A DNA stretch of 64,000 nt from Kineococcus aurantiacus (GTDB lineage: Bacteria; Actinomycetota; Actinomycetes; Actinomycetales; Kineococcaceae). The DNA is taken from contig NZ_JACCBB010000002.1 of NCBI RefSeq assembly GCF_013409345.1, positions 62,001 through 126,000 on the forward strand. The letters run 5' to 3'. A program made the translations under genes and the position numbers. The notes under the pieces are model-generated. The model saw only the letters and a list, made by a program, of their open reading frames with translations. It did not search any database and was not told where the DNA came from. Each line of letters opens with the position of its first letter. Within the stretch, counting starts at the first letter, position 1. Below, in pieces: positions 1,815 to 53,389 of the stretch.

Positions 1815-1830
1815 CCTAACAATCGTTAGG
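1815..1830. promoter_or_regulatory. TetR-type operator, MFS gene, distal site
   Basis: The 16-bp inverted repeat CCTAACAATCGTTAGG lies about 150 bp before the MFS start and differs from the consensus CCTAACGNNCGTTAGG at one base. It is one of eight related sites in the window. Confidence 0.65.
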
Positions 1831-1905
1831 AGCATAGGGTTTCGAGATCGTCACTCCCCTCAAGTCGCCTACTCCTCCTAGTGTCATCTTGAACACACCA
1901 TGTAA

Positions 1906-1921
1906 CCTAACGATCGTTAGT
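1906..1921. promoter_or_regulatory. TetR-type operator, MFS gene, proximal site
   Basis: CCTAACGATCGTTAGT, about 58 bp before the MFS start, is a near-perfect inverted repeat. Two sites 91 bp apart (centre to centre) upstream of one gene would allow cooperative binding; that use is inferred. Confidence 0.7.
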
Positions 1922-1979
1922 GACACTGCTCGCATTAGCAGCAGCGCCGCCCAAGGCCTAGGACGCCGGAGGACGCGAC

Positions 1980-3185
1980 GTGCAAGCCCTCTACCGACGA
2001 CCTTGGAGGTGCTTAGCTGCTCTGTTCGCGCTGCCCGGACGTGCGTTGTCGTCCTGGGTCGCCCGGACTTCGAACATCCGTGACCTGCTGGCAGCCTCCA
2101 CCGGCGAGGTGGGTCTCGTGGGCGGCGGCTTGTCGATGGGCTCGATGGTCGGTGTCATGTCATCCAGTCCGTTCATCACCCGCTTCGGGGCCCGACGGGT
2201 GGTACTGGCTGGGATCGCCACGAGGGCCGCCAGCCTGCCCATGGTCGGGCTGGGCACGATGGTCGGACCAGGTCAGACGGCAGCAGCTCCAGTGCTCTTC
2301 GCGCTCGGGATGGACGCGGCGGAGATCGCCGTCAACGTCGAGGGGGCTCTGGTCGAGTCCACTCGAGCGTGTCCCTTGCTACCCTTCCTACACGGCTGCC
2401 ACAGCGTGGGAACCGTGGCCAGCTCGGGTCTGGGATTGACTGTGGCCGCTGTCGACGTCCCGGAGCAGGTTGAGCTCGTGATCGTCGGCACAATGATCAT
2501 GGCTGTGCTGGTCTCAACCGTTCGCGTTGTCTCGATCGATGGTGGGCGCCGGCCATCGGCAGTCGGTGGGGACGTTGCGGAAGAACGTGCACCAGCACTG
2601 AAGCGCGGCCGATTGCTGCTCATCGGACTGCTGGCGCTGGCCTCAGCCGAAGGCACCGCGAACGACTGGCTGCCCCTGCTCGTGGTGGATCTACTTGGAC
2701 TTCGCCCGGTGGATGGTTCGCGCGCTGTCACCATCTTCGCCGTTACCACGACGGTAGGACGCTTCTCCGGTAGCGCTCTCTTTTCCCGGTTCGGGCGCGC
2801 ACCCGTACTGCGGATCAGCGCGGTGGCCGCCGCCAGCGGCATCGTCCTCGTGTCGTTCGGCCACGGCCAGGTTGCGCTACTAGCGGCAGTCGTGCTGTGG
2901 GGCGCCGGCGCCTCCCTTGCCTTTCCGATCGTCATCTCAGCCGCGGGGAGCTCTGGCCAGGACTCCGCTGCACCGGTGGCCCTGGTCCCAACGGTCGGTT
3001 GTATGGCCTTCCTCGTCGGTCCTCCTCTGTTGGGCGTGCTCGACGAGCACTTCGGCCTGGCCAAGGCGATGCTGGTCCCCCTGGGCGCAGTCATCACCGC
3101 CTTCTTCCTCGCTCCTGCGGTGCGGTCCCGGCGACCGCAAGACATCTCAGAACACGGGAGCCCACCGGCGCCCCTCAATGGTTAA
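1980..3185 (+). CDS. MFS permease (block A copy, intact)
   Basis: A 401-residue very hydrophobic protein with about 12 predicted membrane segments. It begins at a GTG preceded by CCGGAGGA. The opening part (SSWVARTSNIRDLLAASTGE) and a later APVLFALGMDAAEIAVNVEG segment are typical of the FucP/YbjJ-like actinobacterial major facilitator branch, so it is a secondary transporter in the cytoplasmic membrane; the substrate is unknown. Two palindromic operators precede it. A homologue at 45.7-46.9 kb is broken by frameshifts, so this is the only working copy here. The glycosidase gene follows after 67 bp, suggesting co-transcription. Confidence 0.8.
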   Translation: MQALYRRPWRCLAALFALPGRALSSWVARTSNIRDLLAASTGEVGLVGGGLSMGSMVGVMSSSPFITRFGARRVVLAGIATRAASLPMVGLGTMVGPGQTAAAPVLFALGMDAAEIAVNVEGALVESTRACPLLPFLHGCHSVGTVASSGLGLTVAAVDVPEQVELVIVGTMIMAVLVSTVRVVSIDGGRRPSAVGGDVAEERAPALKRGRLLLIGLLALASAEGTANDWLPLLVVDLLGLRPVDGSRAVTIFAVTTTVGRFSGSALFSRFGRAPVLRISAVAAASGIVLVSFGHGQVALLAAVVLWGAGASLAFPIVISAAGSSGQDSAAPVALVPTVGCMAFLVGPPLLGVLDEHFGLAKAMLVPLGAVITAFFLAPAVRSRRPQDISEHGSPPAPLNG

Positions 3186-3252
3186 CGCGTGCGCGTGCAT
3201 CAGGCTGGATCCCACTGACACCTGACGCTCTCTCATCACCTGGAGTCTCACC

Positions 3253-5946
3253 ATGGCAGTCACACCGCACTCTTCGGACGATCCAATGAACGAGCCGCAG
3301 CACCGCAGCGCCGAGCACGCGCGGATGGCCGAGTCCCCCGGGGCCGACGGTCCCTGGCGGCTGTGGGGGCCCTACGTCTCCGGCCGGCAGTGGGGCACCG
3401 TCCGGGAGGACTACACCCCCACCGGTGACGCCTGGACCGCCTTCCCCTTCGACCAGGCGCGCTCCCGGGCCTACCGCTGGGGCGAGGACGGCCTGGGGGC
3501 CGTCTGCGACCGCTTCGGCTTCCTCAACCTCGGCGTCGCCCTGTGGAACCGCAAGGACCCCTTCCTCAAGGAGCGCCTCTTCGGCCTCACCAACGGCGAG
3601 GGCAACCACGGCGAGGACGCCAAGGAGTACTGGTGGGCCGTGGACGGCACCCCCAGCCACTCCTGGATGAAGTGGCTCTACCGCTACCCGCAGGCCGAGT
3701 TCCCCTACGCGCAGCTGCGCGAGGAGAACGCCCGCCGCGGGCGCGACGAGCGCGAGTACGAGCTCGGGGACACCGGGGTCCTCGACGAGAACCGCTTCTT
3801 CGACGTCGAGGTCACCTACGCCAAGGCCGGGCCCGACGACCTGTGCATGGTCGTCTCGGCGACCAACCACGGACCCGACCCCGCCCCCCTGGACCTCGTC
3901 CCGCAGGTCTGGTTCCGCAACACCTGGGCCTGGGGCTGGGACCGCCGCCGCGGCACTCTTGCACGAGCAGAACGACAGGAGATCGGAGAGCCCAACCACG
4001 TCACCGTCGACTGCCGGCACGATTTTCTGGGCAATTACCACGTGAGCGCCGAGGGACATCCAGACGTCTTGTTCTGTGAGAACGAGACCAACTTCGTCGA
4101 ACTGTTCGGCGCGGCCAGCAACCCGACGAAGTACACCAAGGACGGGGTCGACCGCCGCATCGTGGGAGGAGACCGAGGGGCCATCAACCCGGCGCAGCGC
4201 GGGACGAAGGCAGCCTTCTGGTACGCCTTCGACGAGGTGCTGCCCGGTCAGACCGTGACCGTGCGTCTACGACTCTCCTCCCAGGTGCCAACCACAGGAA
4301 CTTTCGGGCCCGGGTACGACGCCGTCCTGCGCGACCGGCAGGCCGAGGCCGACGAGTTCTACGACCACGTCATCCACCCCGCCCTGTCCGACTCCGACCG
4401 GCACATCGCCCGGCGCGCCTACGCGGGGCTGCTGTGGACCAAGCAGCTCTACCGCTACGACGTCCGCCAGTGGCTCGGCGGCGACCCCGAGACCGAACCG
4501 GCCCCCGAGTCGCGCAAGGCCCGCGGCGCCCGCAACGTCGCCTGGACGCACCTGTCCCTGGCCGACGTCATCTCCATGCCCGACGAGTGGGAGTACCCCT
4601 GGTTCGCCGCCTGGGACCTCGCCTTCCACGCCATCCCCCTGGCCCACGTCGACCCCGACTTCGCCAAGGAACAGCTCGTCCTCATGTGCCGCGAGTGGTC
4701 CATGCACCCCAACGGGCAGCTGCCCGCCTACGAGTGGGCCTTCGGCGACGTCAACCCTCCCGTCCACGCCTGGGCCGCCTGGCACGTCTACCGCCTCGAC
4801 GGCTACCGGGACCAGGGCTTCCTCGTCCGCGTCTTCACCAAGCTGCTGCTGAACTTCTCCTGGTGGGTCAACCGCAAGGACGCCAGCGGGTCCAACCTCT
4901 TCGAGGGCGGCTTCCTGGGCATGGACAACATCGGCCTGTTCGACCGCTCCGCCGAGCTGCCGCCCGGGTACCGGCTCGAGCAGTCCGACGCCACCAGCTG
5001 GATGGCCTTCTACTGCCAGCAGATGTTCAAGATCGCCCTGGAGCTGTCGCGGCACGACCCCGCCTGGGAGGACGCCGCGACGAAGTTCCTCGAGCACTTC
5101 CTGTCCATCGCCCAGGCCCTGACCAGCTTCGGCGCCACCGACACCAGCCTGTGGGACGAGGAGGACGGCTTCTTCTACGACGTCCTGCTGCACCCCGACG
5201 GCACCGCCGAACCCATGCGCGTGCCGTCCATGGTCGGCCTCCTGCCCATCCTCGGCGCCACCGACGTGCCGTCCTGGATCGCCGAGGAGACCCCCGACCT
5301 CACGGCCCGGCTGCGCTGGCTGCAGAAGCGCCGCCCCGACCTGACCCTGCCGCTGCTGACCAAGGTCGACGAGGACGGTGAAAAGTCGATCCTCTCCCTG
5401 GTCGACAAGCCCCGGCTGCAGCGGGTCCTCGACCGCATGTTCGATCCAAACCAGTTCCTGTCCAGGCACGGCATCCGCTCGTTGTCGGCGGCGGCGAGCG
5501 CCGCGATCAGCACTCGGATCGAGGGACAGGAGTGGTCGATCGCCTACGAACCCGGTGAGTCCACCGGGCCGATGTTCGGGGGGAACTCCAACTGGCGCGG
5601 CCCTGTGTGGTTCCCGGTGAACATCATCCTCACCGACCGGCTGCGGACACTGGGGCGCTTCTTCGGCGACGACGTGACCGTCGAGTACCCGCCCGGCTCC
5701 GGGGAACGGATCGACCTCCTTCAAGCTGCGCGGCACCTGGAGGACGATCTGGTCTCGTTGTTCAGGCCCGTCGACGGCCGCCGCCCCGCCGACGGGCAGC
5801 GGATCGAGGCCACCGACGACCCGCTGTGGCGCGACCACATCACGTTCAACGAGTACTTCGACGGCGACACCGGCGAAGGCCTGGGCACGAGCCACCAGGG
5901 GTGGACGTCCTACGTCGTCCACTTCCTGGCCCGTCGTCGTCCTTGA
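3253..5946 (+). CDS. GH63/MGH1-like glycosidase
   Basis: An 897-residue cytoplasmic protein (no signal peptide) of the mannosylglycerate-hydrolase/GH63-like (alpha/alpha)6-barrel group. An N-terminal beta-rich part spans about residues 30-360 and the helical barrel about 380-890. Family-type acidic motifs are visible: FAAWDLAFHAIPLAHVDPD near residue 453 and FNEYFDGDTGEGLG near 866, where this clan has its catalytic acid and base. It probably hydrolyses an alpha-glucosyl or alpha-mannosyl link in a small glycoside; the substrate is not predictable. Codon bias is patchy: nearly all G/C third positions at 3253-3950 and 4320-5380, clearly lower at 3955-4320 and after about 5385. This suggests recombination with another copy. 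A truncated duplicate lies at 46.9-47.2 kb. Confidence 0.8.
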   Translation: MAVTPHSSDDPMNEPQHRSAEHARMAESPGADGPWRLWGPYVSGRQWGTVREDYTPTGDAWTAFPFDQARSRAYRWGEDGLGAVCDRFGFLNLGVALWNRKDPFLKERLFGLTNGEGNHGEDAKEYWWAVDGTPSHSWMKWLYRYPQAEFPYAQLREENARRGRDEREYELGDTGVLDENRFFDVEVTYAKAGPDDLCMVVSATNHGPDPAPLDLVPQVWFRNTWAWGWDRRRGTLARAERQEIGEPNHVTVDCRHDFLGNYHVSAEGHPDVLFCENETNFVELFGAASNPTKYTKDGVDRRIVGGDRGAINPAQRGTKAAFWYAFDEVLPGQTVTVRLRLSSQVPTTGTFGPGYDAVLRDRQAEADEFYDHVIHPALSDSDRHIARRAYAGLLWTKQLYRYDVRQWLGGDPETEPAPESRKARGARNVAWTHLSLADVISMPDEWEYPWFAAWDLAFHAIPLAHVDPDFAKEQLVLMCREWSMHPNGQLPAYEWAFGDVNPPVHAWAAWHVYRLDGYRDQGFLVRVFTKLLLNFSWWVNRKDASGSNLFEGGFLGMDNIGLFDRSAELPPGYRLEQSDATSWMAFYCQQMFKIALELSRHDPAWEDAATKFLEHFLSIAQALTSFGATDTSLWDEEDGFFYDVLLHPDGTAEPMRVPSMVGLLPILGATDVPSWIAEETPDLTARLRWLQKRRPDLTLPLLTKVDEDGEKSILSLVDKPRLQRVLDRMFDPNQFLSRHGIRSLSAAASAAISTRIEGQEWSIAYEPGESTGPMFGGNSNWRGPVWFPVNIILTDRLRTLGRFFGDDVTVEYPPGSGERIDLLQAARHLEDDLVSLFRPVDGRRPADGQRIEATDDPLWRDHITFNEYFDGDTGEGLGTSHQGWTSYVVHFLARRRP

Positions 5947-6092
5947 TCCCCAGCAACCTTCCCGGACCAGGACGGTTGGCGTACACCGTTCGTGCCTAGC
6001 CTCCCGGGCGGATCCCTGCCACGGGGTCGAAGGTCTCGATCGATCCTGCTCCTCGGACGACCAGCGCCGGGGTCGGACAGCAGGAGGCACGC

Positions 6093-7440
6093 ATGGCAGC
6101 CGAGTCAGCAGACACCCGGACTGGCCGAGCGGCCGGGTCGAGGACACCGGTCGACGGTGGTGCTCACCGCTTGCGTGGTGAACTGGGTGTTGGAGAGCTG
6201 GTTATGGGCGTGCTCGCCTTCTCGGCGCCCCTGTCGACGGCCGCAGGCTTCATCTCCGTGCTCTTGACGTACAGTGGCAACACCGGTCCTGCGATCCACC
6301 TCCTGCAGACGTTGTTCTGCATCCTCATCTCGGTGGCTTCATCACGATGGGACGGAAGGTAGAGAACCCGGGGGTTTCTACTCCTTCGTCTGCGCCAGCC
6401 TGGGCGAGCCCGCCGGCCTGGGCGATGCGTTCCTGGCCACTTTCGGCTACACGGCGATCGGCTTCTCCGCCCCGGCCTTGTTCGCAGTCACGCGCCAGGG
6501 CTACGTCGTCGGCCTGAGTGGTCCTTCGATCCCCCGGTACTGGATCGCGCTGGCCATCGTCGCCGGCGTGACGGCGCTGCCGTACCGGCGCATCGACGTG
6601 TCTACCAAGGTGCTGAGCGCGGTGATGGTGTTTGAGGTCGTCGTGGTGGTCGTCTTCGGCGTCGTGTCGCTCGTCACGGGGTACGGCGCCGGTCGCAGAG
6701 GAGGCGACCTGACCCTGCCGTGGGTCAGCGACGCGAACATCGGACTCGCCCTGCTGTTCGTGATAGGCAGCTTCTTCGGTTTCGAGGCTACGGTGATCTA
6801 CCGGGAGGAGGTCGAAGATCCCCGACGTACGACCCCTCGGGCGACGGCCGTCGCCGTTGGAGGGATCGGCCTCTCCTCCGCCGTCGCGGCGTGGGCCTCG
6901 TTGCCTTCTCCGGTGCGGGCGAGGTCCGGGGTGCAGCGACGCGGGACGCGTCCGGTCTCTTCAACACGGCGTTGACCGCACCTCGTCGGGAAAACCGTCG
7001 TGGATGTCGTCATGCGTCTGCTCATGACGCCGATCCTGGCGTCCATGCTCCCCGTCCAGAACGTGTCTGGACGCTACCTCTACTCCCTCGGGACCGTGTC
7101 CTGCCCCGGTCCCCAAGTCGGGTCCACCCGTGGCATGGACCACCGCGCGTCTCAGCGGCGCAGGTCGGCGGGCTGTGGGCCGCCCTGATCGTGGTCCTCG
7201 CGCTGCTGGGGACGTCCCCAGCCCTGTTGTGCGCCCGAGCCAGCGGTGTAGGTACCTTGGTGGTCCTGCTGTTGCTTCTTGCTACCAGTATGGCCGCACT
7301 TGCCTACTCCCCGCCACCCGGACCCGTCGGAGTCGGTCGCAGGGACGCTCGTGGCGCCGCTGCTGTCCGCGCTCGGCCTGGCCGTCGTGACCTACCTGGC
7401 GATCACGAACTACTCAGGACGACTCTTCACCGGTGGCGCC
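6093..7440 (+). pseudogene. APC-family amino-acid permease, frameshifted
   Basis: The start at 6093 opens into LVMGVLAFSAPLSTAAGFIS, then stops at 6360. Homology continues in other frames: GGFYSFVCASLGEP (equivalent to GAFYTYISLGFG in the intact APC genes), FFGFEATVIYREEVEDPRRT, then fragments LASMLPVQNVSGRYLYSLG and a final LVAPLLSALGLAVVTYLAI. At least four frame changes and a shortened C-terminal half rule out a functional transporter. It is more diverged from the two intact APC permeases than they are from each other, so it is a separate paralogue. Confidence 0.75.
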
Positions 7441-7464
7441 TGGTCACATTCCGTGACGTCAAGG

Positions 7465-8025: not shown

Positions 8026-8107
8026 CGTCTCTGCAGTCGGGTCAGGTGACGCCGTCACCGGACACCGGTCCAAAAGCGGGCGGCTCGACGAGCCTGCGCC
8101 GACCGCC

Positions 8108-8829
8108 GTCGAGCATCGTGCTCCACGAAGGCTTCGACGACGTTTGAGGCGCGTGATCGACTGGCGCAGCACCTCGCCCAGGTGGATGCGACCCGGCAGA
8201 CGGAGTCGCGGTGACGGATCTTGCGGGCCTTCTTGCGCCTGGCTGCTGAGCACGGTGTCTCCTCAGTCATGATGCGCATGCTCGGACGTGCGGTCAACGT
8301 GCAGGCTCCTAGCATCTGTGCCCACTTCCCGCAGGGTCGGGACGAGATCGTCGTCGAGTCGCTGCGCTGGAGCTTCCATGAGTTCGGTACGGCTCTGCTC
8401 GAAGCGGTCACCGACGCGGTGACCCCGCGCGAGCACTGGGACGCCATCGTCCGTGTCCACCTTGGCCGGCAGCTCCAGCTCCCGGAGAGCAGCCTGTGAG
8501 ACCTCCTGGTCGCGACCGACCGCATGGCCGGCACCCTGCCACCGCAGGGGCGGGCGGAGGCCGACCAGCTGATGGAGCTGCACGAGAGAATCCTCGTCGC
8601 GGCCGCGCTCGAGATGGGCGTGCGCTCAGCGCAGCCGCCGGTGAGCATCGTGGTGACCCTCCTCGAAGGTGCCACCCGGTGGAACGGGTGGACGGGGGAC
8701 GATGAGCAACTGCCAGGCCTCGCCAACCGTGCCGTGCACCTCGCCGGTCTCCTGCTGGAGGAAGCCGTAGCCGATGACGCCCTCCTGCCCGTGGCGATCG
8801 CTCGTCGCCCACCGGTGCCTTCCGCCTGA
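8108..8829 (+). pseudogene. TetR-family regulator, block A copy, nonsense-mutated
   Basis: It aligns end to end with the intact regulator at 49330-50049 (for example FLRLAAEHGVSSVMMRMLGR against FLRLAAEHGVSSVTMRMLGR). The start codon is lost. An in-frame TGA lies at 8212 in the N-terminal arm, and a second TGA at 8497 replaces the Trp codon of the LWDLLVATDRMAG segment. Downstream of each stop the same frame continues to be homologous, so these are point mutations. No active protein is expected. Confidence 0.85.
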
Positions 8830-9337: not shown

Positions 9338-9353
9338 TCTAACTAGCGTTAGG
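9338..9353. promoter_or_regulatory. TetR-type operator, APC permease A
   Basis: TCTAACTAGCGTTAGG, ending 109 bp before the APC start. The identical 16 bases occur 106 bp before the block B APC start, so both sequence and position are conserved. Confidence 0.75.
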
Positions 9354-9462: not shown

Positions 9463-10968
9463 ATGAGCAACACCTCAGCTGAACCCGGCAGTGCCGTACA
9501 CCACCGGACGCCGCCCCAGGACGGCTCGCGGCTATCGGGGAACATGGGGACGACCTCGTTGGTTCTCAGCGTGCTGGCCTTCTCCGCTCCCCTAGTCACC
9601 GTCGCCGGTTACATCTCCTTCGCCATCGGGTTCGTCGGCAAGGCCGCACCGATCGCGTGGCTGGTCGCGACGGTCGTCCTGCTGATCTTCGCCGTCGGAT
9701 ACACGACGATGACGAGGCACATCCCCCGCCCAGGCGCGTTCTACACCTACATCTCGCTCGGGTTCGGTCGGGTCTTCGGAGTCGGCAGCGCCTATCTCGC
9801 CACCATCTCCTACCTGGCCATCACCGCCGGCATCTACGCGTTCGCCGGCACGTCCCTGGGCGCCCTGGTCGGCATCCTGCACGGACCGTCCGCCCCGTGG
9901 TGGGTCTGGGCCCTAGTCGTTTGGGTGATCGTCACCGGGCTGGGCCACTTCAACGTGGAGCTGTCGGCGAAGGTCCTCGGCATCGTGATGGTCCTCGAGA
10001 TCATCGTGGTGGGCGTCTTCAACGTGTTCACCCTGGCCAAGGGAGGGGCCGAAGGACTGTCTGCAGCCCCCATCGACCCGTCAGCGTTCATCAACGGCGG
10101 CACCGGCATGGCTCTGCTCTTCGCCTTCGGCAACTTCATCGGCTTCGAGGCTACGGCGCTCTTCCGGGACGAGGTCAAGGATCCCGACCGGACCATCCCG
10201 CGCGCGACCTACATCTCCGTGCTGCTCATCGGACTCTTCTACGCGGTGTCGGCCTACTCGCTGATCCTCGCCTACGGTCCGGACAAGGCCCAGGGCACAT
10301 CGACCAGCGCCCCCGGCGACATGTTCCACGACGCCCTGTCCACCTTCGTGGCTCCTGCGGTCTCCCAGGTCGCTGTCCTGCTCGTCACGACGTCCGCCCT
10401 GGCTTCGGTGCTCTCGGTGCACAACGTCTCGGCCCGGTACCTGTTCAACCTGGGTGCCGACCACGCCCTACCGCACACCTTGGCGGCGGTGCATCCGCGC
10501 CACAAGTCCCCGTACCGTGCCTCGCTGGCCACCGCGATCATCACTCTGGTAATGGTCGCCCCGTTCGCGGTGTTCTCTGACAACCCCGGTTTCCTCCAAG
10601 GCACGGGCAGTGGCGTCGGTACCGCTGGTGTCCTCATCCTCATGGCTCTGGTGAGTCTGGCTGTCGTCAAGTGGTTCGCCCGGACCGGACGCCCTGCTGG
10701 TGAGTCCCGCTGGAACGTGTCCATCGCCCCGATCCTGTCCTTCGTCGGGCTCGCGGCGGTCGTCATCTTCGCCGTCGTCCGGTTTGACCTGCTCGTGGGT
10801 GGGGCCCCCGGTGAGTACTTCTGGATGCTCGGCGTCCTGCTGGCCTTCGTCGCCGCCGGCTGCGGGGTCGCCCTCTACTACCGCTCCGCCCGGCCGGAGT
10901 GGTACGCCCGCCTGGGTCGTCAGGACGGCACCACCGCCGAGGAAGAAGCCCCCCTCGTCAAGGAGTGA
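9463..10968 (+). CDS. APC-superfamily amino-acid/polyamine permease (block A)
   Basis: A 501-residue membrane protein with about 12 transmembrane helices. APC hallmarks are visible: a first helix with LVLSVLAFSAPLVTVAGYIS, IPRPGAFYTYISLGFGR after helix 2, and NFIGFEATALFRDEVKDPDR around residue 225-245, as in amino-acid transporters of the AmAT type. It probably imports an amino acid or amine by proton coupling. The ATG follows AGGAGG by 4 bases. It closely resembles the permease at 50.9-52.4 kb over its whole length. The tail-to-tail neighbour is a dead TetR. Likely controlled by the palindrome at 9338. Confidence 0.85.
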   Translation: MSNTSAEPGSAVHHRTPPQDGSRLSGNMGTTSLVLSVLAFSAPLVTVAGYISFAIGFVGKAAPIAWLVATVVLLIFAVGYTTMTRHIPRPGAFYTYISLGFGRVFGVGSAYLATISYLAITAGIYAFAGTSLGALVGILHGPSAPWWVWALVVWVIVTGLGHFNVELSAKVLGIVMVLEIIVVGVFNVFTLAKGGAEGLSAAPIDPSAFINGGTGMALLFAFGNFIGFEATALFRDEVKDPDRTIPRATYISVLLIGLFYAVSAYSLILAYGPDKAQGTSTSAPGDMFHDALSTFVAPAVSQVAVLLVTTSALASVLSVHNVSARYLFNLGADHALPHTLAAVHPRHKSPYRASLATAIITLVMVAPFAVFSDNPGFLQGTGSGVGTAGVLILMALVSLAVVKWFARTGRPAGESRWNVSIAPILSFVGLAAVVIFAVVRFDLLVGGAPGEYFWMLGVLLAFVAAGCGVALYYRSARPEWYARLGRQDGTTAEEEAPLVKE

Positions 10969-10976
10969 CCGCACCA

Positions 10977-11740
10977 TCACGAGCGCTCGGGGAATGGGAG
11001 CAGGGGTCCCTCTCCCCGTTGTGCTGTCCCCCGCAACCACCGGCACAGCGTCACAGCACGGTCCTCGAGCCGGGTCAGGCCCTCAGGCGCTTCGGACCAG
11101 TCGTTCCAACGGCCTGCTCCGCCCAGGAGGATCATCACCAGCTTCGCCAGCTCACCCGGACGTCACATACCCACTGCTGCGTCCACCGCCGCAAAGAGCC
11201 CCTCGTAGCAAGCGGTGTGTCGCTGGGCGTATGCGCGCGCTGCAGGGGCAGGACCCCCAGCTGCTCGTGGGTCTGGATGATGAGGTCCTACAGGTCGCTC
11301 CCCGGAAGTGCGAGCTGGCGTCGGAAGTGGGTCCGGACCACCCCGTCCCACCTCCCCTCCGCAGACTCAACGGAGTTCAACTCAGGGAGCAGGTCCTGGG
11401 CGAAACGGTGCGCGTGCCAGGCGAGCGATTGGGTGACGAGGTCGGTGCGACTACCCGGGAAGTGCGCGTACAGGCTCGGCTCCTGCGCGGACAGAACAGA
11501 CCCCAGCTTCCGCATCGAGACCGATCCCAGGCCCTGCCGGCCGGCCGGTTGGAGGAAGGTCTCCAAGATCACCTGCTCTGTCGCAGACAGCCCGGGCCAG
11601 TCAGCCTGCGCGGTGTGCTCGATCCAGCGCGGCCTGGACCTCTGGATGTCGGTACCGAGTCACGCCATCGACCTCTGGTCGGTCGGAGGTCCCACGCTGC
11701 CCGCCACTGCACCCCCGGTGCGTTCGAGACGGGGTGGATC
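10977..11740 (-). pseudogene. TetR-family regulator 2, block A copy, nonsense-mutated
   Basis: Homologous to the intact gene at 52526-53329; matching pieces include ILETFL, SLYAHFPGSRTDLVTQSLAW and AGRWNDWSEAPEGLTRLEDR. The stop at 11288 is a TAG in place of the Trp codon of the LWDLI segment. A second in-frame stop follows VDAAVGM near 11166. Upstream similarity (RWIEHTAQADWPGLS) reaches about 11650 without a clear start. It cannot encode a full regulator. Confidence 0.85.
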
Positions 11741-11762: not shown

Positions 11763-11778
11763 TCTAACGCTCGTTAGG
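11763..11778. promoter_or_regulatory. TetR-type operator upstream of dead TetR 2 (block A)
   Basis: TCTAACGCTCGTTAGG, immediately upstream of the pseudogene. The intact block B homologue has an equivalent site, which points to ancestral autoregulation. Confidence 0.65.
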
Positions 11779-42172: not shown

Positions 42173-42176
42173 CTGT

Positions 42177-42563
42177 AAGGCAGCCTCCAGGTCCAGCTTC
42201 CCGGCGACGCGCAGCTCCTCGAGCAGGACCTGGTGCAGCTGCGGCCAGACGTCGGCTTCGGTCCAGTCCCGTAGTCGCCGCCAGCACGTCACGCCGGAGC
42301 AGCCGAACTGCTCAGTCGGCACCTGGCCCCAGGTGCAGCCGATGGTCCGGACATGGGCGATGCCGGCTGACGCGGCGCGGTCGTTGCGCGGCAGGCGGCC
42401 GGGGCGGCGAAAGGGCGCGGTGGACGCTGCGGCAGCAACGGCTGCACCCGCCGCCACAGCCCGTCCGGCACCAGCCCCGCGATCTCTGCGGCACCACCTC
42501 GTCGGTCATGTCATCAAGGCTGTGATGACCACAGCCGTCCCGCAAGTCATGGTGGAATCAGCT
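42177..42563 (-). mobile_element. IS5-type element 3, truncated
   Basis: An N-terminal transposase fragment from the ATG at 42509, frameshifted early, with GCTWGQVPTEQFGCSGVTCW and WTEADVWPQLHQVLLEELRV. It ends abruptly at KLDLEAA, exactly where element 2 begins. Tandem contact suggests insertion or unequal exchange between copies. Confidence 0.7.
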
Positions 42564-42884: not shown

Positions 42885-43296
42885 TCAGGAACGAACGTGC
42901 GCGATGGCGCCAATCTCGATGAGAGCGCCTTCGCCGCCGAGGCTAGCGACCCTGAACCCCGCCCGTGCGCGGTAGGGCGCGGTGAAGTGCTTGGACTTGA
43001 CCGGCAGGAACCGTGGATCGGTCTCGGCCATGCCGCCCTTGTGGAACGTCTGGAGCTGCACGACGTCACGATGGTGGCGCCAGCCTCGTCCAGGATGCTC
43101 TTGAGCGCTTCCAGCACGAGTTCGGCCTGGCGAGCCCCGTCGGCCGGGATGGTGCCGTCGGCCTCGATCCCCAGCTGGCCAGACGCGAAGATGAGGTCTC
43201 CGACCCGAAGCCCTGGAGCGAGTCCAAAGGTGGCGAGTCCTCCTCGGATCCTGCGGGGGCCAGGTACATGAAGTTTTCCCTGGCGTTGTCGGTCAT
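42885..43296 (-). pseudogene. ridA: RidA-family enamine/imine deaminase, frameshifted
   Basis: MTDNARENFMYLAPAG, then in a second frame FGLAPGLRVGDLIFASGQLG and ELVLEALKSILDEAGATI, then in a third VVQLQTFHKGGMAETDPRFL and RVASLGGEGALIEIGAIAHV. All RidA elements are present, but two frame changes split them. It lies directly after the amine oxidase; RidA often detoxifies imines made by such enzymes. Confidence 0.8.
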
Positions 43297-43310: not shown

Positions 43311-44695
43311 TCAGAGGGTGGAGGTTGAGCTGGACGAGTAGGTCTCGAGGACTGCCGCGGCGGCGGCTTCACCGGCCTGGACGGCACCTTCCATGTATCC
43401 GGTCCACGCCGCGGCCGCTTCGGTCCCGGCGAAGTGGATCGGGCCGACGGAGGCCGACAGGGCTTCGCCGACGGCACTTAGCACGCCCGGAGGCAGGTAG
43501 GTGACGGGGGCGCCCATGGTGTGGTCCACGACCGGCCAGTCGGTCTCGACTAGGCCAACGGAGCCGCCGCCTCGGGACCGAAGGCCTGGACCAGCAGGTT
43601 GACGAAGGCCGCCCGGCGGTCCTCGTGCGACTTCACCGCCCAGGTGTCGTAGAGGTATCCGCCGATGAAGCCCACCATCGTGGCGTTCTCGTCACCGGGG
43701 CGGGTCGCATCGTAAGCGAGGCAGCCCAGATCGGCATCGAACACCTCGCCGGACAAGTCTTGCTCGCGCCAGAACGGGGCCGCGTAGCGCAGTTGGAGCT
43801 TGACCTCGCGGCCCATCGGCGCACGGGACTGCAGCTGGCGACGTGCCGGGGGCAGCGCCGGCGTGAAACGCAGGGCGTTGGCCGCTGCGGGCGGGGCGGC
43901 GATGATCAGCGCGGGCGCACGGTAGGTCCCCGTGGTGGCGTGCACGACCGTCTCGGTGCCGGTCCACTTGACGGCGGTCGCCTGCGCGTCGGTGACGACC
44001 GTGATGCCGTCGAGCTCCGCGATCCGTTCGGAGATCTGCTGGGCTCCCCCCAGCCACAGCGCGTCCTGTGCGGAGACCTGCAGCGCCCGGATTCCTTCGC
44101 ACTTGGCGACGAACTGGGCCATGAACAGCGCCGAAACCTCGGCGGGGTCGGCGCCGAAGTAGGCGCTCAGGTCCACCACGACGATGTGCAGGACGACGGG
44201 GTCTTCGACCCGGGCGGCGAGCCAGGCTCCAGCCGACTGGGCGTCCAGCGTCCGGTGCTCAGGCGAGTCCCAGGGGCCGACCGGCCCGACGGTCTTGGCG
44301 AGGTCGTCGATCAGCCCGTAGGCTTTGGCCAGCTTGGCGTCGAAGCCCTCTGATCCGGCCAGCGACGCCGGGTAGCCCCCGTCCGGGGCGTGCGTGAGAC
44401 TGCCGTCGACGCGGAAGAGCATGCGACCGCCAGGCCGGGCGCTCACTGCGTGCAGGCCCAGCGCCTCCCCCAGCGCACGAGAGCGGTGGTGCGTCGCGCC
44501 GATGAACATCCCGCCGAAGTCGACTGGACCACCCTCGAACGTCTGGTCGGTGTGCGTCCGGCCACCGACGCGGTCTTTGGCCTCCAGCACAGTGACCTGG
44601 AGCCCCTGCTGGATCAGCGTGTAAGCGGCTGCGAGACCGGACAGGCCGGCGCCGACGACGAGAACGTCGGGGGTCGATGGGTTAGTCGAGTTCAT
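43311..44695 (-). pseudogene. Flavin monoamine oxidase, single frameshift
   Basis: The first 381 codons are intact: VLVVGAGLSGLAAAYTLIQQ, EAKDRVGGRTHTDQTFEGGP, and substrate-domain parts to QAFGPEAAAPLA. A stop follows near 43550, and the family's C-terminal part continues in the next frame (VETDWPVVDHTMGAPVTYLP, IHFAGTEAAAAWTGYMEGAV). One base change in length restores a full about 460-residue enzyme that would oxidise a primary amine to an aldehyde. A palindromic operator lies 55 bp before the start. It is either a recent pseudogene or a sequencing error. Confidence 0.8.
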
Positions 44696-44749: not shown

Positions 44750-44765
44750 ACTAACGCTAGTTAGG
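44750..44765. promoter_or_regulatory. TetR-type operator, amine oxidase
   Basis: ACTAACGCTAGTTAGG, 55 bp upstream of the amine oxidase start, matches the window-wide palindrome. Confidence 0.65.
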
Positions 44766-45645
44766 GTCTGTTTCTGACATGTCTCAGTGCGGTAACAGCA
44801 AGCTAACGAACATCAGGAAGCCGAAAACTCCTCACCGGCGTGTCCACCTGCTTCGTGGGCGCGACGCACGCCACTTCGGCGCGAGGGCCAGCCGACCTTG
44901 CAGCAGCCACAGCGCGGTGAACCCGTGCACAGGCTGGGCATGAGAGCAGTTCCACCGAGCCTGGCAACAGCAACCTCGAGACCCACGTGGCGATCAAGCA
45001 TGCAGCTTCGACGATCGTCTCCAGACCCACTGGGCCACCGTCCCAGCGGCTCCATGATCCGATCCCTGGCAAGACGGTCGAGATCCGCGACGTCGCCTGA
45101 CGGAAGGTTCCTGGCAGCGCAGGGTGCTGCGATGTTCTCATGGACAGGTCGTCCTCCGCGGTGACCCGCGCCTTCACATTCCCCCGCATGGAGGTCGGAA
45201 GCTCGAGGCGATGCGATCGCTCGCCAGCAGCATGTGGAACATGCAGCTATCCGACACCTTGAGCCGAGTACGTACGTGGTAGCCGATAAGTCGGTCAAGA
45301 ACCCGGCGACCGTCGATCCGACCGAGGGCGCCAAGGATCCCGATGTCCGCTACGTGCAGCAAAACCTCAGTGCGACCTAACTCACCCCGTCGCAGCCGCC
45401 AAAGAACGAGCTCTTCCCCGTAGCGGCCTGACAATCACGGCCAGCCACGTCATGCGGTCGCGCTCCGAGTGCAAGACGACCAGAACAGGAGCAGCGATCG
45501 TCCCCATCTCCCATGGTCAAGACCGTGCGGTCAAGACCCCGCGGAAACGTGCGGACATCAGTGATGACGACCCGGGCAACCCTCGACCAGCCACCTTTGA
45601 CGTGACTGATCACTCGATCGACAGAACTCGTCACCGCTCGTGTAG
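44766..45645. other. Degenerate region, no gene assigned
   Basis: A leftward 86-codon frame (45174-45434) with LHVADIGILGALGRIDGRRV is faintly like the region before the HTH in PucR/CdaR regulators. No helix-turn-helix can be found and the call is not safe. Nothing else is recognisable. Confidence 0.3.
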
Positions 45646-45661
45646 CCTAACGACTGTTAGA
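45646..45661. promoter_or_regulatory. TetR-type operator, MFS pseudogene (block B)
   Basis: CCTAACGACTGTTAGA lies just upstream of the dead MFS copy and corresponds to the site at 1906. Confidence 0.6.
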
Positions 45662-45681
45662 ACCGAGCACCGGAGGACGAT

Positions 45682-46904
45682 GGTGCCCACCTGAATACCG
45701 ACGGCAGCGATGGGCACTGTCCTTGCTCGTCGTGCTCCCGGGCTTGTCGATCTCCTCGTGGGTGGCCCGGACTCCCGCGATCCGCGACCTGCTGAGCGCT
45801 TCGACCGGTGAGATGGGTCTGGTGCTGGGCGGACGTTCGATGGGCTCGACACTCGGGGTGCTGACGTCCAGCGCCTGGATCGGGCGGTTCGACAACCACC
45901 GCGTCGTCCTGGTGGGCGGTGCCGTCATGGCTGTCAGCCTTCCCCTCATCGGTACCGTCGCTGCGCTCGCGACCACCGCGACCGCAGCATCGCTCCTGCT
46001 CTTCGGTGCCGCGATGGGGCTGACCGAGGTCGCCCTGTACGTGGAGGGTGCACTGCTGGAAGCGAGGCTCGGTCGGTCCGTCCTGCCGGCGCTGCATGGC
46101 TTCTTCAGCTTAGGAACCCTCCTCGGATCCACTTCGGGCATGGGAGCGATCGCCGGGCGCCGGCCGTCCTCACCCACCTCGCTCTTGTCGCGGTGGTCGT
46201 GGTGGGCGTGGTCACCGCGACCGCCTGGCTGGTGTCGGTCGAGGTCGGCTCGTGTCGGTGGAGGGAGGCCGACGGACGCCGTCTTGGGGTCGGTAACACA
46301 CTCCGGGCCGCCGCTGCTGCGCGACCGCCGACTCCTGGTCCTCGGTCTGCTCGTCCTCGTCATGGCAGGGACCGAGGGACGGTCAACGACTGGCTACCGC
46401 TGCTCATGGTGGACCTGCACCGCCTGTCGTCATGCAAGGGCTCCTTCGTGTTCGCGGTCTTCGCCCTGTTCATGGCGATTGGGCGCTTCACCGGCGGCTG
46501 GGTGATCCCCCACTACGGCAGTGGTCGTCGTCCTGCGGGGCAGCGCCGCCTGCGCGGTAGCAGGCATCGGTCTCGTCGCGTTCGGGCGGGGAGTGGGAGT
46601 GTTGATCCCGGCCGTCGTGCTGTGGGGCCTGGGCGCCTCGTTGGCCTTCCCGATCACCCTGTCCGCTGCAGGGGACTCGGGGCCGGACCCCGCCGCCCGG
46701 GTCTCTTTATCGGCGCTGGGCTGTGTCGCCTTCCTGGTGGAACCTCCCCTGCTGGGCGCTCTCGGCAAACACGGGGGACTCGCCCAAGCGGTGCTCGTCC
46801 CGATGATCGCGGTGGCCCTCAGTTTGTTCCTGGCCCACGTCGTCCAGCCACGCCGCCAACTCGATCCGGCTGCGACGGTTGCTCAGTCGTCGAAAGCTTC
46901 ATGA
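45682..46904 (+). pseudogene. MFS permease, block B copy, frameshifted
   Basis: Homologous to the intact gene at 1980: SSWVARTPAIRDLLSASTGE, EVALYVEGALLEARLGRSVL, TVNDWLPLLMVDLHRLSSCK and GASLAFPITLSAAGDSGPDP. An extra base near the start shifts the first codons. Breaks occur near 46163, 46380 and 46520. Several lesions indicate long inactivity. Confidence 0.85.
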
Positions 46905-46929
46905 CCTACCACCCGCGCACGCAGAGGAG

Positions 46930-47175
46930 CTCGACGTTAACCCGTCTCGAGAGCGCCGCAGGCACCGAAGCGCCGAGCACGCGCGGATGGCCGAGTCCCC
47001 CGGGGCCGACGGTCCCTGGCGCCTGTGGGGGCCCTACGTCTCCGGCCGGCAGTGGGCATGTCCAGGAGGACCACACCCCCACCGGCGATGCCTGGACCGC
47101 CTTCCCCTGCGACCAGGCGCGCTCCCGCGCGTACCGCTGGGGCGAGGACGGCCACCGAGGTGGGAGCCACCTCGG
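46930..47175 (+). pseudogene. GH63-like glycosidase, 5' remnant (block B)
   Basis: Roughly 190 bases (46971-47165) are almost the same as 3306-3500 of the intact glycosidase (encoding HARMAESPGADGPWRLWGPY), with a 2-base deletion near 47056 that shifts frame. Similarity then stops; over 2.4 kb of the gene is deleted. The match is tighter than elsewhere between blocks A and B. Confidence 0.85.
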
Positions 47176-49329: not shown

Positions 49330-50049
49330 ATGGCTGGCACGGCAACGCAGACGACGCTGGAGGCGCGCGACAGGCTCGCCCGACACCTGGCCGGGATGGG
49401 CGATCCCGGGAAGACGCCGGCGCGACGCAACATCCTCAAGGCGTTCCTGCGTCTAGCGGCCGAGCACGGCGTGTCATCGGTCACCATGCGCATGCTCGGC
49501 CGGGCCGTCGGGATCCAGGCTCCGAGCATCTACGCTCACTTCCCTCAGGGCCGTGATGAGATCGTCGTGGCCTCTCTGCGCTGGAACTTCCACGAGTTCG
49601 GCTCAGCCCTCCTCGAGGGCGTCGCGAGCGCTGTGACACCCCGGGAGCACTGGGACGCCATCGTTCGCGTGCACCTGGTGCGGCAGCTGCAGCTGCCGGA
49701 GAGCAACTTGTGGGACCTGCTGGTTGCCACCGACCGGATGGCAGGCACCCTGCCCCCTCAGGGTCGGGCGGAGGCGAACCAGCTCATGGAGCTGCACGAG
49801 AGCATCTTGGAAGCCGCTGCTCGTGAGATGGGCGTTCGGCATCCGCGCCCACTCGTGGGCATCGTCGTGACGCTGCTGGAGGGGGCGACCCGTTGGAACG
49901 GCTGGGACGGAGACGAAAGCCACCTGCCGGCTCTGGCCGAGCGAGCTGTGCAGCTGGCCGGTGGGTTGCTGGAACAGGCGATCACCACGGACGTCCTTGT
50001 CCCAGGTCCCGTCGTGTCGCGACAGCGCGGCATCACCTCTGCGCACTGA
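49330..50049 (+). CDS. TetR-family regulator 1 (block B, intact)
   Basis: A 239-residue TetR protein. HTH about residues 35-80: KAFLRLAAEHGVSSVTMRML, GRAVGIQAPSIYAHFPQGRD. The ligand domain contains LWDLLVATDRMAGTLPPQGR and ATRWNGWDGDE. It is the working version of the pseudogene at 8108. It lies upstream of the APC permease, same direction. The second TetR in this block shares the domain architecture (SLYAHFPGGRREVV, LWDLIVATDAQ), so both may recognise the same palindrome. Confidence 0.85.
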   Translation: MAGTATQTTLEARDRLARHLAGMGDPGKTPARRNILKAFLRLAAEHGVSSVTMRMLGRAVGIQAPSIYAHFPQGRDEIVVASLRWNFHEFGSALLEGVASAVTPREHWDAIVRVHLVRQLQLPESNLWDLLVATDRMAGTLPPQGRAEANQLMELHESILEAAAREMGVRHPRPLVGIVVTLLEGATRWNGWDGDESHLPALAERAVQLAGGLLEQAITTDVLVPGPVVSRQRGITSAH

Positions 50050-50796: not shown

Positions 50797-50812
50797 TCTA
50801 ACTAGCGTTAGG
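50797..50812. promoter_or_regulatory. TetR-type operator, APC permease B
   Basis: TCTAACTAGCGTTAGG, identical to the block A site and at the same distance from the start (106 versus 109 bp). Confidence 0.75.
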
Positions 50813-50918
50813 TTTCAACCGGAAGCACCGCTCCCAGAGCCGGGAGCGGCCGGGCCGACGCACCACACGACGACCGCGGCGCGAGACCAACGATGCTCGT
50901 CCGCCGCAAGGAGGAAGC

Positions 50919-52421
50919 ATGAGCAACACCTCAGCCCGGCCAGTCACCGAGATCACCAGCGGTACCGCAGCCACCGAGTCCAGTCGGCTGTGCGGCAACA
51001 TGGGCACGACCTCCTTGGTCCTCAGCGTCCTGGCCTTCTCAGCTCCGCTCGTCACGGTGGCCGGCTACGTCTCCTTCGCCATCGGCTTCGTCGGGCAGGC
51101 CGCTCCCCTGGCCTGGGTCGTGGCTACAGCGGTCCTGCTCATCTTCGCGGTCGGCTACACGACCATGACGCGTCACATCCCCCGACCCGGCGCGTTCTAC
51201 ACGTACATCTCCCTCGGCTTCGGCCGCGTGTTCGGCGTCGGCAGCGCCTACCTCGCCACCGTGTCCTACCTGGCCATCACCGCTGGCATCTACGCCTTCG
51301 CCGGGACATCACTGGGGTCCATGGTGAGCATGCTGCATGGTCCATCGGCTCCCTGGTGGGTGTGGGCTCTGGTCACCTGGGTGATCGTCACCGTGCTCGG
51401 GCACTTCAACGTCGAGCTGTCGGCGAAGGTCCTTGGCGTCGTCATGGTGTTCGAGATCGTGGTGGTGGTGATCTTCAACGTCTTTACGCTCGTCAAGGGC
51501 GGGGCCGAAGGCCTGTCGGCGGCACCCCTGTCCCCGTCGGCGTTCATCAACGGCGGGACGGGCATGGCGCTGCTCTTCGCCTTCGGCAACTTCATTGGGT
51601 TCGAGGCGACAGCACTGTTCCGGGACGAGGTCCGCACCCCAAACAGGACCATCCCGCGCGCGACCTACATCTCGGTGGCCCTCATCGGGGTCCTCTACGC
51701 GGTCTCGGCCTACTCGTTGATCATCGCCTATGGACCGGCGGCCGCTCAGGACAGCGCGAACAGCGCGCCCGGTGACATGTTCCACGACGCGCTGTCGCTG
51801 TACGTCGCACCGGCCGTCTCACAGGTGGCTATCCTGCTGGTGACGACCTCTGCGCTGGCTTCGGTGCTGTCGGTGCACAACGTTTCGGCGCGCTACCTGT
51901 TCAACCTCGGTGCGGACCGTGCCCTCCCCCACGCGTTGGCCGCGGTGCACACCCGGCACAAGTCCCCCCACCGAGCCTCGCTGGTCGCCGCGATCATCGT
52001 CTTGCTCATGGTCTCGCCCTTCGCGCTCGCCTCCAGCGACCCCGGCTTCCTGCAAGGCACTGGCAGCGGGATCGGCACGGCCGGGGTGCTCATCCTCATG
52101 GCGATGGTGAGCCTCGCGGTCGTGGCCTACTTCGCCCGTCGGGGCCGTCCGGCCGGCGAGTCGCGCTGGAACGTCCTGGTGGCTCCGATCCTGGCCTTCC
52201 TCGGGCTGGCAGCGGTCGTCGTCTTCGCCATCGCACGCTTCGACCTGCTGGTGGGCGGGGCTCCGGGCGAGAACCTGTGGATGCTGCTGGTACTGCTGGC
52301 CTTCGTGGCCCTGGGCTGTGCCGTGGCGCTGTACTACCGCGTCAAGCGTCCGGACCTGTACGCCCGCCTGGGCCGGCACGCCGACAGCGACCCGATCGAA
52401 GCCGAACTCGTCGACCAGTGA
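50919..52421 (+). CDS. APC-superfamily amino-acid/polyamine permease (block B)
   Basis: A 500-residue membrane protein with 12 predicted helices, closely similar to the block A permease throughout (MGTTSLVLSVLAFSAPLVTV, SVHNVSARYLFNLGAD). Differences cluster at the N-terminal 25 residues, the C-terminal tail and a few loops. The ATG follows AAGGAGG by 6 bases. It is the only gene intact in both blocks, so the two proteins may differ in substrate or affinity. Flanking TetR genes and an upstream palindrome suggest induction by the transported compound. Confidence 0.86.
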   Translation: MSNTSARPVTEITSGTAATESSRLCGNMGTTSLVLSVLAFSAPLVTVAGYVSFAIGFVGQAAPLAWVVATAVLLIFAVGYTTMTRHIPRPGAFYTYISLGFGRVFGVGSAYLATVSYLAITAGIYAFAGTSLGSMVSMLHGPSAPWWVWALVTWVIVTVLGHFNVELSAKVLGVVMVFEIVVVVIFNVFTLVKGGAEGLSAAPLSPSAFINGGTGMALLFAFGNFIGFEATALFRDEVRTPNRTIPRATYISVALIGVLYAVSAYSLIIAYGPAAAQDSANSAPGDMFHDALSLYVAPAVSQVAILLVTTSALASVLSVHNVSARYLFNLGADRALPHALAAVHTRHKSPHRASLVAAIIVLLMVSPFALASSDPGFLQGTGSGIGTAGVLILMAMVSLAVVAYFARRGRPAGESRWNVLVAPILAFLGLAAVVVFAIARFDLLVGGAPGENLWMLLVLLAFVALGCAVALYYRVKRPDLYARLGRHADSDPIEAELVDQ

Positions 52422-52525
52422 GCTGAACACGGCAGCTGAGGAGGCAGCCCCTCCTGGACACTGTCCGGAGGAGCCGCCCCTCATCGAGCGGCGCCCTGCG
52501 GCTGGCGGTGGTCTCCCTAGCGGTG

Positions 52526-53329
52526 TCAGTGCCCGTTCGAACGCGCCTGTGCCAGCACCCAGCCGCAGACGGCCACCGCCCGGTCCTCCAAGTGCTTCAG
52601 GTCCTCAGGCGCACCGGACCAGTCGTTCCAACGCCCCGCGCCTTCCAGCAGCGTCAGGACGAGCCGGACGAGAGAGCTGGGGTCAGGGACGCCGAGCTGG
52701 ACCACGACGGCCGTGAGCAGGTCCTCGTAGCAGGCGACGTGCCCCTGTGCCGTGGCCCGGGCGGCATCGGGCAGCCCACCCACCTGCGCGTCGGTTGCCA
52801 CGATGAGGTCCCACAGATCGCTTTCAGGGAGGGCGAGCTGGCGGCGCAGGTGGATGCGCACGAGCGTCTCCCAGGCGTCATCGGCCGTGGTGGCGCCGGC
52901 CAGGGAGGACAAGACCGCTCGGGCGAAGCGGTGGGCGGACCAGCTCAGAGACTGGATGACCACTTCGCGTCGGCCTCCGGGGAAGTGCGCGTAGAGGCTA
53001 GGCGCCTTGACCGACATCGCCTGCCCGAGCATCCGCATGGTCACCGAGGACCATCCGTGCCGAGCCGCCAGTCCTAGGAACGTCTCCAAGATCGCCAGCT
53101 TCATCGGCGACAGGTCCGTCCAGTCGGTCCTGCTGGTGTGCGCGTCCCAGCGCTGACAGGCTTCCTGCACCGCAGTGCTCAGCGTGGATCCAGCACCGGG
53201 TCCACCCGGGAGGGACGCCCTCAGGTCGATCACGGCCGGGGCGCTCGACGGGTCGGGCACCCAGGTTGCGCCCGGGGCAGCAGCGGCGGGACCGGCCCGC
53301 CCGTTCTCGGCATGCACCTGCGTCACCAT
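52526..53329 (-). CDS. TetR-family regulator 2 (block B, intact)
   Basis: A 267-residue TetR protein with a long about 65-residue N-terminal extension. HTH: ILETFLGLAARHGWSSVTMR, MLGQAMSVKAPSLYAHFPGG. Ligand domain: LWDLIVATDAQVGGLPDAAR and AGRWNDWSGAPED. The ATG at 53329 follows AGGAGG. A palindromic site 44 bp upstream makes it the best candidate for the autoregulated repressor that binds all eight sites. The block A homologue is a pseudogene. Confidence 0.85.
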   Translation of the reverse strand: MVTQVHAENGRAGPAAAAPGATWVPDPSSAPAVIDLRASLPGGPGAGSTLSTAVQEACQRWDAHTSRTDWTDLSPMKLAILETFLGLAARHGWSSVTMRMLGQAMSVKAPSLYAHFPGGRREVVIQSLSWSAHRFARAVLSSLAGATTADDAWETLVRIHLRRQLALPESDLWDLIVATDAQVGGLPDAARATAQGHVACYEDLLTAVVVQLGVPDPSSLVRLVLTLLEGAGRWNDWSGAPEDLKHLEDRAVAVCGWVLAQARSNGH

Positions 53330-53373
53330 CGACCTCCTCCGCCCCGGGTCACACGACTCGGTGCACCTCTACA

Positions 53374-53389
53374 CCAAACGGACGTTAGG
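53374..53389. promoter_or_regulatory. TetR-type operator, TetR 2 gene
   Basis: CCAAACGGACGTTAGG, one mismatch in the left arm, 44 bp upstream of the TetR 2 start. Confidence 0.6.

Follow-up and report, generated by a model that had tools for sequence, protein, structure and literature searches.

What controls a set of transporter, regulator and amine oxidase genes that share one 16-bp inverted repeat before their starts? The question is raised by a stretch of 64,000 nucleotides from Kineococcus aurantiacus (NCBI RefSeq assembly GCF_013409345.1, contig NZ_JACCBB010000002.1, here C2, positions 62001-126000; hereafter the window), in which eight copies of the repeat had been predicted to form an undescribed regulon under one TetR repressor, either TetR1 or TetR2. 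C2 comprises 174,614 bases, and the genome 5,027,298 bases in two contigs (C1 and C2). The comparisons reported here suggest that the palindrome is very probably the operator of a TetR subfamily with the members TetR1, TetR2 and TetR3, which would repress genes for the uptake and oxidation of amines or amino acids.

Distribution of the palindrome

The searches were performed with two patterns, the 16-mer CCTAACGNNCGTTAGG and the 14-mer core CTAACGNNCGTTAG. All eight positions of the original prediction are exact, and each of these sites has one or two mismatches to the 16-mer. The sites are as follows, all of them unstranded, with scores from the matrix described below:

1815..1830, predicted operator CCTAACAATCGTTAGG, 149 bp before MFS copy A; matrix score 19.5
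1906..1921, predicted operator CCTAACGATCGTTAGT with perfect core, 58 bp before MFS copy A; matrix score 28.0
9338..9353, predicted operator TCTAACTAGCGTTAGG, 109 bp before APC copy A; same 16 bases as 50797, the flanks of the two promoters having diverged
11763..11778, predicted operator TCTAACGCTCGTTAGG with perfect core, upstream of the broken TetR2 copy; matrix score 26.7
44750..44765, predicted operator, 54 bp before the amine oxidase ATG; matrix score 18.7
44802..44817, probable weak second predicted operator before the amine oxidase gene, with three mismatches to the 16-mer and two to the core; matrix score 17.4
45646..45661, predicted operator, 34 bp ahead of where the broken MFS copy B first becomes recognisable; matrix score 18.8
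50797..50812, predicted operator TCTAACTAGCGTTAGG, 106 bp before APC copy B; matrix score 21.2
53374..53389, predicted operator, 44 bp before the TetR2 ATG; matrix score 18.7

With up to three mismatches, the 16-mer matches the window 11 times, whereas 1.43 matches are expected (standard deviation 1.30; largest number among 100 shuffles, 5). Three of these matches, at 17677, 27637 and 44802, lie beyond the eight. Across the whole genome, 11 places match the 16-mer with up to two mismatches, every one of them on C2, against 2 for the reversed-pattern control. For the core with at most one mismatch the confinement is also complete, being all 10 places on C2, which represents 3.5% of the genome, with none for the reversed control; these ten are the eight window sites plus C2:147852 and C2:171276. 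An equal frequency of the motif throughout the genome, which had been named as the observation that would count against a regulon, is thus not what is found at this threshold. Moreover, no TetR2 relative at E ≤ 1e-15 was found in the searched genomes of the genus (ten besides this one) and of the family (one), two of the genus genomes holding weak matches (1.2e-4 and 3.1e-4). Those ten genus genomes contain 2 core places in total versus 10 here (3 for the reversed control).

A symmetrical matrix was built from 20 sites of relatives, with the genome's own sites excluded, and run over C2. Its top eleven matches are the ten core places plus 44803, with scores from 28.0 to 17.4, and the next score, of 9.1, comes from reading the C2:171276 site out of register. 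The scan also reveals that the sites vary in their inner and outer bases. The matches at 17677 and 27637 were set aside as probably due to chance, neither scoring above 9 with this matrix; the latter sits within a glycosyltransferase open reading frame (ORF).

The genes behind the eight sites had been read correctly, namely MFS (from 1980), APC (ATGs at 9463 and 50919), TetR2 (ATG at 53329), amine oxidase (ATG at 44695) and the broken copies of TetR2 and MFS. As had been claimed, the sites before dead genes are still recognisable, three of the eight standing in front of broken genes. The eight sites all exist; however, they represent only four kinds of promoter, because 9338/50797 and 11763/53374 are duplicate pairs and 1906/45646 precede MFS genes of 43% identity, and the regulon would extend past the window. 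The genes concerned, with their neighbours, are these:

1980..3185, + strand, MFS transporter copy A, open frame of 401 aa (Pfam MFS_1, 61.4 bits)
8119..8808, + strand, broken TetR1 copy (TetR1'), 74% identity, 2 stops
9463..10968, + strand, APC amino-acid/amine permease copy A, open (Pfam AA_permease_2, 111.4 bits), 81% identical to copy B
11019..11659, - strand, broken TetR2 copy (TetR2'), two pieces of 52-56% identity with one stop in each
42894..43258, - strand, RidA-like gene behind the amine oxidase gene, its match split into two pieces that lie in different frames
43389..44695, - strand, flavin amine oxidase, cyclohexylamine-oxidase-like, frameshifted; ORF 43550-44695 (381 aa), C-terminal part 43389-43559 in another frame
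45696..46865, + strand, MFS copy B, broken (1 stop within the part that aligns), 43% identical to copy A
49330..50049, + strand, TetR1, intact, 239 aa, candidate repressor (PF00440, 38.5 bits; family search; model pLDDT 89.1)
50919..52421, + strand, APC permease copy B, intact, 500 aa (Pfam AA_permease_2, 102.1 bits)
52526..53329, - strand, TetR2, intact, 267 aa with an N-terminal extension, candidate repressor (PF00440, 25.0 bits; 47% identity to TetR1)
53449..54840, - strand, glutamate dehydrogenase (GDH), neighbour in the duplicated block (Pfam ELFV_dehydrog, 242.5 bits)

The TetR2 ATG is preceded by a purine-rich ribosome site. GDH was rejected as a target of 53374, its 3' end and not its start facing the site. 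The frame of the amine oxidase gene breaks near 43,555; its best Protein Data Bank match is the cyclohexylamine oxidase 4i58 (1.1e-84), and it is 59% identical to the monoamine oxidase of locus L035. Another APC permease remnant, in three pieces, one with a stop, lies at 6147-7307 and has no operator in the matrix scan.

Outside the window, the C2:171276 site lies 63 bp before an APC-SDR-zinc ADH-TetR3 operon. At C2:147852 the site stands 38 bp ahead of the likely start of a protein that combines AAA-lid and Fis-type helix-turn-helix domains (AcoR/DhaR-like); genes for a D-2-hydroxyacid dehydrogenase and then a class III aminotransferase follow downstream. The best NCBIfam match of this putative activator is DhaR, at 81 bits and far under the cut-off of 551, and AcoR is the name that we presume to fit it.

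A TetR family linked to the core

TetR1, TetR2 and TetR3 (C2:167103-167822) form one family. TetR2 is 39% identical to TetR3, and the identity to TetR1 is about 46-47% for TetR2 and 38% for TetR3; in all three the recognition-helix regions are alike. Since these regions are similar, a shared control of the sites is likely, and the single repressor of the original prediction is better replaced by a paralogous set, although the choice of TetR1 or TetR2 as regulator agrees with the many relatives that carry the same core near their own genes. The N-terminal TetR helix-turn-helix domain PF00440 is present in TetR1 and TetR2 (cut-off 24). Also, the AlphaFold model of TetR1, with 11 helices and no strands, has the TetR fold (helix-turn-helix plus C-terminal ligand domain), and nearly all of the best 50 Foldseek matches listed for it are titled transcriptional regulators; the PfiT matches (4mxm, 4mo7) bear a different title, but their molecule is named Transcriptional regulator I2. 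The best NCBIfam match is NF050111 (SACE_7040 family), with 39.2 and 36.2 bits under a curated cut-off of 250. The tree places TetR1 and TetR2 as sisters (SH-aLRT 93, with a warning from the tool about long branches), and TetR3 joins Arthrobacter StoSoilB3 and Microbacterium (98). Relatives span Actinomycetota and Pseudomonadota and are found on plasmids (25 records with TetR2 as query, 35 with TetR1) from Arthrobacter, Rhodococcus, Sinorhizobium, Rhizobium, Klebsiella and others.

Relatives in genomes were collected with an alignment of 12 proteins, which did find relatives where a contig scan with TetR2 alone as query found none. The best 80 of 95, in 79 loci, were divided into the family (36 loci, L050-L085, E 1e-35 or lower) and a distant control (43 loci, L086-L128). 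L033 and L045 were excluded as near-copies from the 48 family loci considered below, yet included in 14 plasmid loci; L040 and L046-L049 are not in any count, and L131 was only scanned, with no site. With up to two mismatches, the 16-mer has 38 sites in 21 of the 36 family loci, whereas 60 shuffled palindromes give a mean of 1.8 sites and 10 at most; the 43 control loci have 6 sites in 3 loci (shuffles: mean 1.7, largest 17). For the core with up to one mismatch, the 48 family loci hold 55 sites in 34 loci. If one locus per 70% cluster is kept, 20 sites in 13 of 19 loci are observed, against a mean of 0.50 loci and at most 5 for 179 permuted half-sites. By group, the core is present in 10/10 loci of Arthrobacter, 7/7 of Rhodococcus/Mycolicibacterium/Glutamicibacter and 5/5 of Sinorhizobium. 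Among the 43 control loci, 4 contain the core (6 sites), which falls within the range of their own permutations (mean 0.73 loci, 9/179 reaching 4). These four are the nearest outgroups, L086-L089, in each of which a site lies no more than about 115 bp ahead of the TetR match, and the other controls have none (0/39); the operator therefore would extend beyond the family as delimited.

These outgroup loci belong to Phytoactinopolyspora, Jiangella, Mycobacterium and an uncultured bacterium; their TetR genes are more distant than those of the family, and in L086 and L088 the neighbouring gene encodes a class III aminotransferase.

The same link is seen in whole genomes. Among nine genomes of relatives (53.2 Mb), 22 of the 27 core places with up to one mismatch lie within 30 kb of a family TetR (G012 1/2, G013 3/3, G014 2/2, G015 1/1, G016 3/5, G017 1/1, G018 3/5, G019 3/3 and G020 5/5). 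Moreover, the palindrome often stands by the regulator's own or nearby genes, being 53374 before TetR2, C2:171276 before the TetR3 operon and 13 of 19 clusters of relatives similarly placed; TetR2 and TetR3 are probably autoregulated.

The genes beside the core differ between groups. In the Arthrobacter group the core stands beside the TetR itself and an AcoR-like activator (by homology). In Rhodococcus, Mycolicibacterium and Glutamicibacter it accompanies an APC permease and FAD reductase/flavodoxin-P450 operons, some with SSADH, VOC and MFS. In Arthrobacter StoSoilB3 and Microbacterium the neighbours are amine oxidase-RidA-APC and SDR-FAH, and in Sinorhizobium an ABC transporter; in addition, Modestobacter has a Baeyer-Villiger-like flavoprotein nearby and Poseidonocella a class III aminotransferase. 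Polyamine-type (a label given to the ABC ATPase), SSADH and Baeyer-Villiger-like correspond to best NCBIfam matches under curated cut-offs. The distance from site to ORF was checked in L019 from C2, the outgroups L086, L088 and L089, and 13 of the 48 family loci (17 loci in all). Every site there has an ORF of at least 120 aa starting no more than about 450 bp away, which is a loose requirement where DNA is G+C-rich. Three sites (L074 8353, L078 687 and L088 5888) also fall within a second ORF, of 150 aa or more, in the case of L074 perhaps through start-codon choice.

The operon at C2:147852 has homologues in all ten Arthrobacter-group loci: the AcoR-like protein (55-59% identity), the 2-hydroxyacid dehydrogenase (63-73%) and the aminotransferase (68-85%), each in 10/10. 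An FAH homologue (78-81%) is present in 9/10, the fetched stretch of L052 ending ahead of it. In all ten loci the activator is divergent from a family TetR, with the sites between the two. C2:147852 is therefore connected with the TetR family by evidence that does not involve the genes of the window.

Proposed regulation and its alternatives

Observed are the sites with their number, confinement and position ahead of genes, the relatedness of the TetR proteins and the conserved association of this family with the core; from these patterns we infer binding, repression, release by an inducer and an acting paralogue. In the proposed mechanism, without inducer, a dimer of TetR1, TetR2 or TetR3 would cover the palindrome near the promoter and keep the genes off. 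The repressed set would include the MFS and APC transporters, TetR2, and the cyclohexylamine-oxidase-like gene with the RidA-like gene; beyond the window, it would include the APC-SDR-ADH-TetR3 operon (C2:171276) and the AcoR/DhaR-like activator with the 2-hydroxyacid dehydrogenase and class III aminotransferase (C2:147852). An amine, an amino acid or a breakdown product would then free the TetR protein, and the uptake and oxidation genes would be turned on together. This role is plausible from the gene content, because APC, amine oxidase, RidA, aminotransferase, ABC and SSADH genes are the neighbours; a restriction to cyclic amines is a weaker reading than the general one.

Several observations weigh against this proposal. 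With up to two mismatches, the core has 18 places genome-wide versus 21 for the reversed control, and the eight at exactly two mismatches comprise six on C1 and two on C2; therefore the strong sites alone stand out, and the weak ones resemble background. In the nine genomes of relatives, the reversed pattern has 77 places versus 27, with five of the 27 core places outside these TetR neighbourhoods, so there is no raw excess and the clustering by TetR alone counts. The matrix test is only partly independent, because its 20 sites were picked with the core read in the window. Among the 14 plasmid loci, the 16-mer with up to two mismatches gives 6 sites in 4 loci (shuffles: mean 0.6), a number that the commonest shuffled palindrome equals. 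Also, 6 of the 19 cluster representatives lack the core at up to one mismatch (L034, L036, L042, L044, L065 and L080), and in the larger Rhizobium group it is present in 1/6 loci even at up to two mismatches; part of the family may therefore use another operator. On C2 itself, no operator was found ahead of the TetR1 gene, nor, in the matrix scan, before an APC permease at 28252-29712 (42% identity to the regulated APCs, no stop in the match), and TetR2 is only just above the Pfam cut-off and on a long branch in the tree.

Different readings of the same sites were also considered. Another regulator could bind the palindrome, with the TetR genes linked to it merely through a shared neighbourhood, and a TetR of another kind (L019:8625-9446) does flank the AcoR-like operon near C2:147852. 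However, the link between TetR and core persists across differing neighbourhoods (Sinorhizobium ABC, flavodoxin-P450, AcoR-like and amine oxidase operons), with the TetR family as the common element; moreover, most core places in the nine genomes are near such a TetR, whereas the ten genomes of the genus that lack it hold 2 in all. We consider this reading improbable. More weight, within what is still unlikely, is given to the family being an activator, or to the paralogues splitting the sites into two or three separate small regulons, as the number of paralogues, their modest identity to TetR1 (46% and 38%) and the differences in inner and outer bases between sites might suggest. Against this stand the similar recognition-helix regions and the location of the sites, 34-149 bp before genes and in one case before the TetR2 gene itself, such positions being typical of TetR repressors.

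The sites could also be copies spread by duplication or by a mobile element, without regulatory role; the pairs 9338/50797 and 11763/53374 are indeed duplicates, and transposase remains are present in the window. Nonetheless, at the two APC promoters (9338 and 50797) 16/16 bases of the site are identical while the flanks have diverged, and the flanks of the other two pairs (11763/53374 and 1906/45646) align poorly. In addition, the same core is found by the same TetR family in Actinomycetota and Pseudomonadota, and this last explanation is regarded as very remote. Repression through a shared TetR operator is thus the reading retained here.

A probable regulon in decay and its relation to known systems

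The window contains a duplicated block, with copy A (TetR1', APC, TetR2' and GDH', about 8.1-12.6 kb) and copy B (TetR1, APC, TetR2 and GDH, 49.3-54.8 kb). The identity between copies is 74% for TetR1, 81% for APC, 52-56% for the TetR2 pieces and 76-78% for the GDH pieces, and in copy A the APC gene is the sole unbroken one of the four. Most likely, the regulon is decaying and its predicted operators are outlasting dead genes. After the block duplication, TetR1', TetR2' and one MFS would have been lost, as would the amine oxidase and the RidA-like gene, with the operators persisting.

Other repeats are observed in the window. The pieces 3300-3493 and 46962-47153, about 43.66 kb apart, have 98% and 93% identity, far closer than the other duplicated genes, perhaps through a second, more recent copying or conversion event. 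Two 228-nt direct repeats (86%) lie 391 apart in 41795-42413; together with another repeat, at 42094/42483, they partly overlap a stretch resembling IS5-transposase records. No plasmid near-identical to window positions 40001-64000 was found, the best pieces covering 4%; C2 is not claimed to be a plasmid, and the five matches to PF13614 (ParA type) are all on C1.

TetR regulons are already known as a kind. A comparable case is HdnoR, an Arthrobacter TetR protein that controls 6-hydroxy-D-nicotine oxidase on pAO1, this enzyme being a flavin oxidase in an amine pathway. BkaR of mycobacteria, likewise a TetR protein, has a palindromic core of 16 bp and regulates both its own gene and catabolic genes nearby (PMC3920632). 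It is among the best fold matches to the TetR1 model (6yj2, 20% identity), although distant in sequence. Its core is GTTA(N)T(N4)A(N)TAAC and its targets are branched-chain keto-acid genes (PMC3920632); identity with the BkaR operator was rejected, the core CTAACGNNCGTTAG having its half-sites in the opposite order. No description of the present operator was found in the literature searched, including the available parts of PMC4482099, PMC10820124 and PMC6262902, a partial coverage, such that one may exist elsewhere. Six written-out variants of the core gave a sole match in literature text, which concerns soybean. The term undescribed is thus unproven for this operator.

The best solved relatives of the window amine oxidase are cyclohexylamine oxidases (4i58, 6lqc). 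The window gene is not full-length, its ORF encoding 381 aa versus 448-471 residues in the solved enzymes; unlike this frameshifted gene, the relatives in L035 and L039 are full-length (464 and 460 aa). In the available part of the cyclohexylamine oxidase paper (PMC6262902), no regulator is named.

The most interesting side result is a link of flavodoxin-P450 genes to XplA. In the Rhodococcus R138 cluster, an operon at L031:2188-6898 with the core in front contains a reductase and a flavodoxin-P450 fusion that has XplA as its best solved relative (5e-115). Relatives of this fusion in six more loci, L059, L064, L067, L068, L070 and L072 (78-93%), also have a reductase and the core in front, and some of the operons include SSADH. 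These operons are apparent relatives of the RDX-degrading XplA/XplB system (flavodoxin-P450 plus reductase). However, in Gordonia KTR9 and Rhodococcus DN22 (45% identity) the fetched 19.7-kb stretches with xplA contain no such TetR and no site, and the xplA loci themselves were rejected as targets. No P450 relative was found on C2.

Finally, the window would display a regulon in decay, with predicted operators recognisable before dead genes, and a TetR subfamily of soil actinobacteria, rhizobia and some enterobacterial plasmids gains a concrete predicted operator and target list, so that inducer screening becomes a simple reporter test. More tentatively, and with considerable doubt, one TetR-operator module, present in Actinomycetota and Pseudomonadota and often plasmid-borne, may be a common switch for the catabolism of cyclic or alicyclic amines, with interchangeable first oxidation steps (cyclohexylamine-oxidase-type or XplA-like P450 plus reductase). 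To our knowledge, the natural substrate of XplA is not settled; if this were true, the inducer of the module would reveal the natural substrate class from which the RDX-degrading XplA/XplB was drawn.

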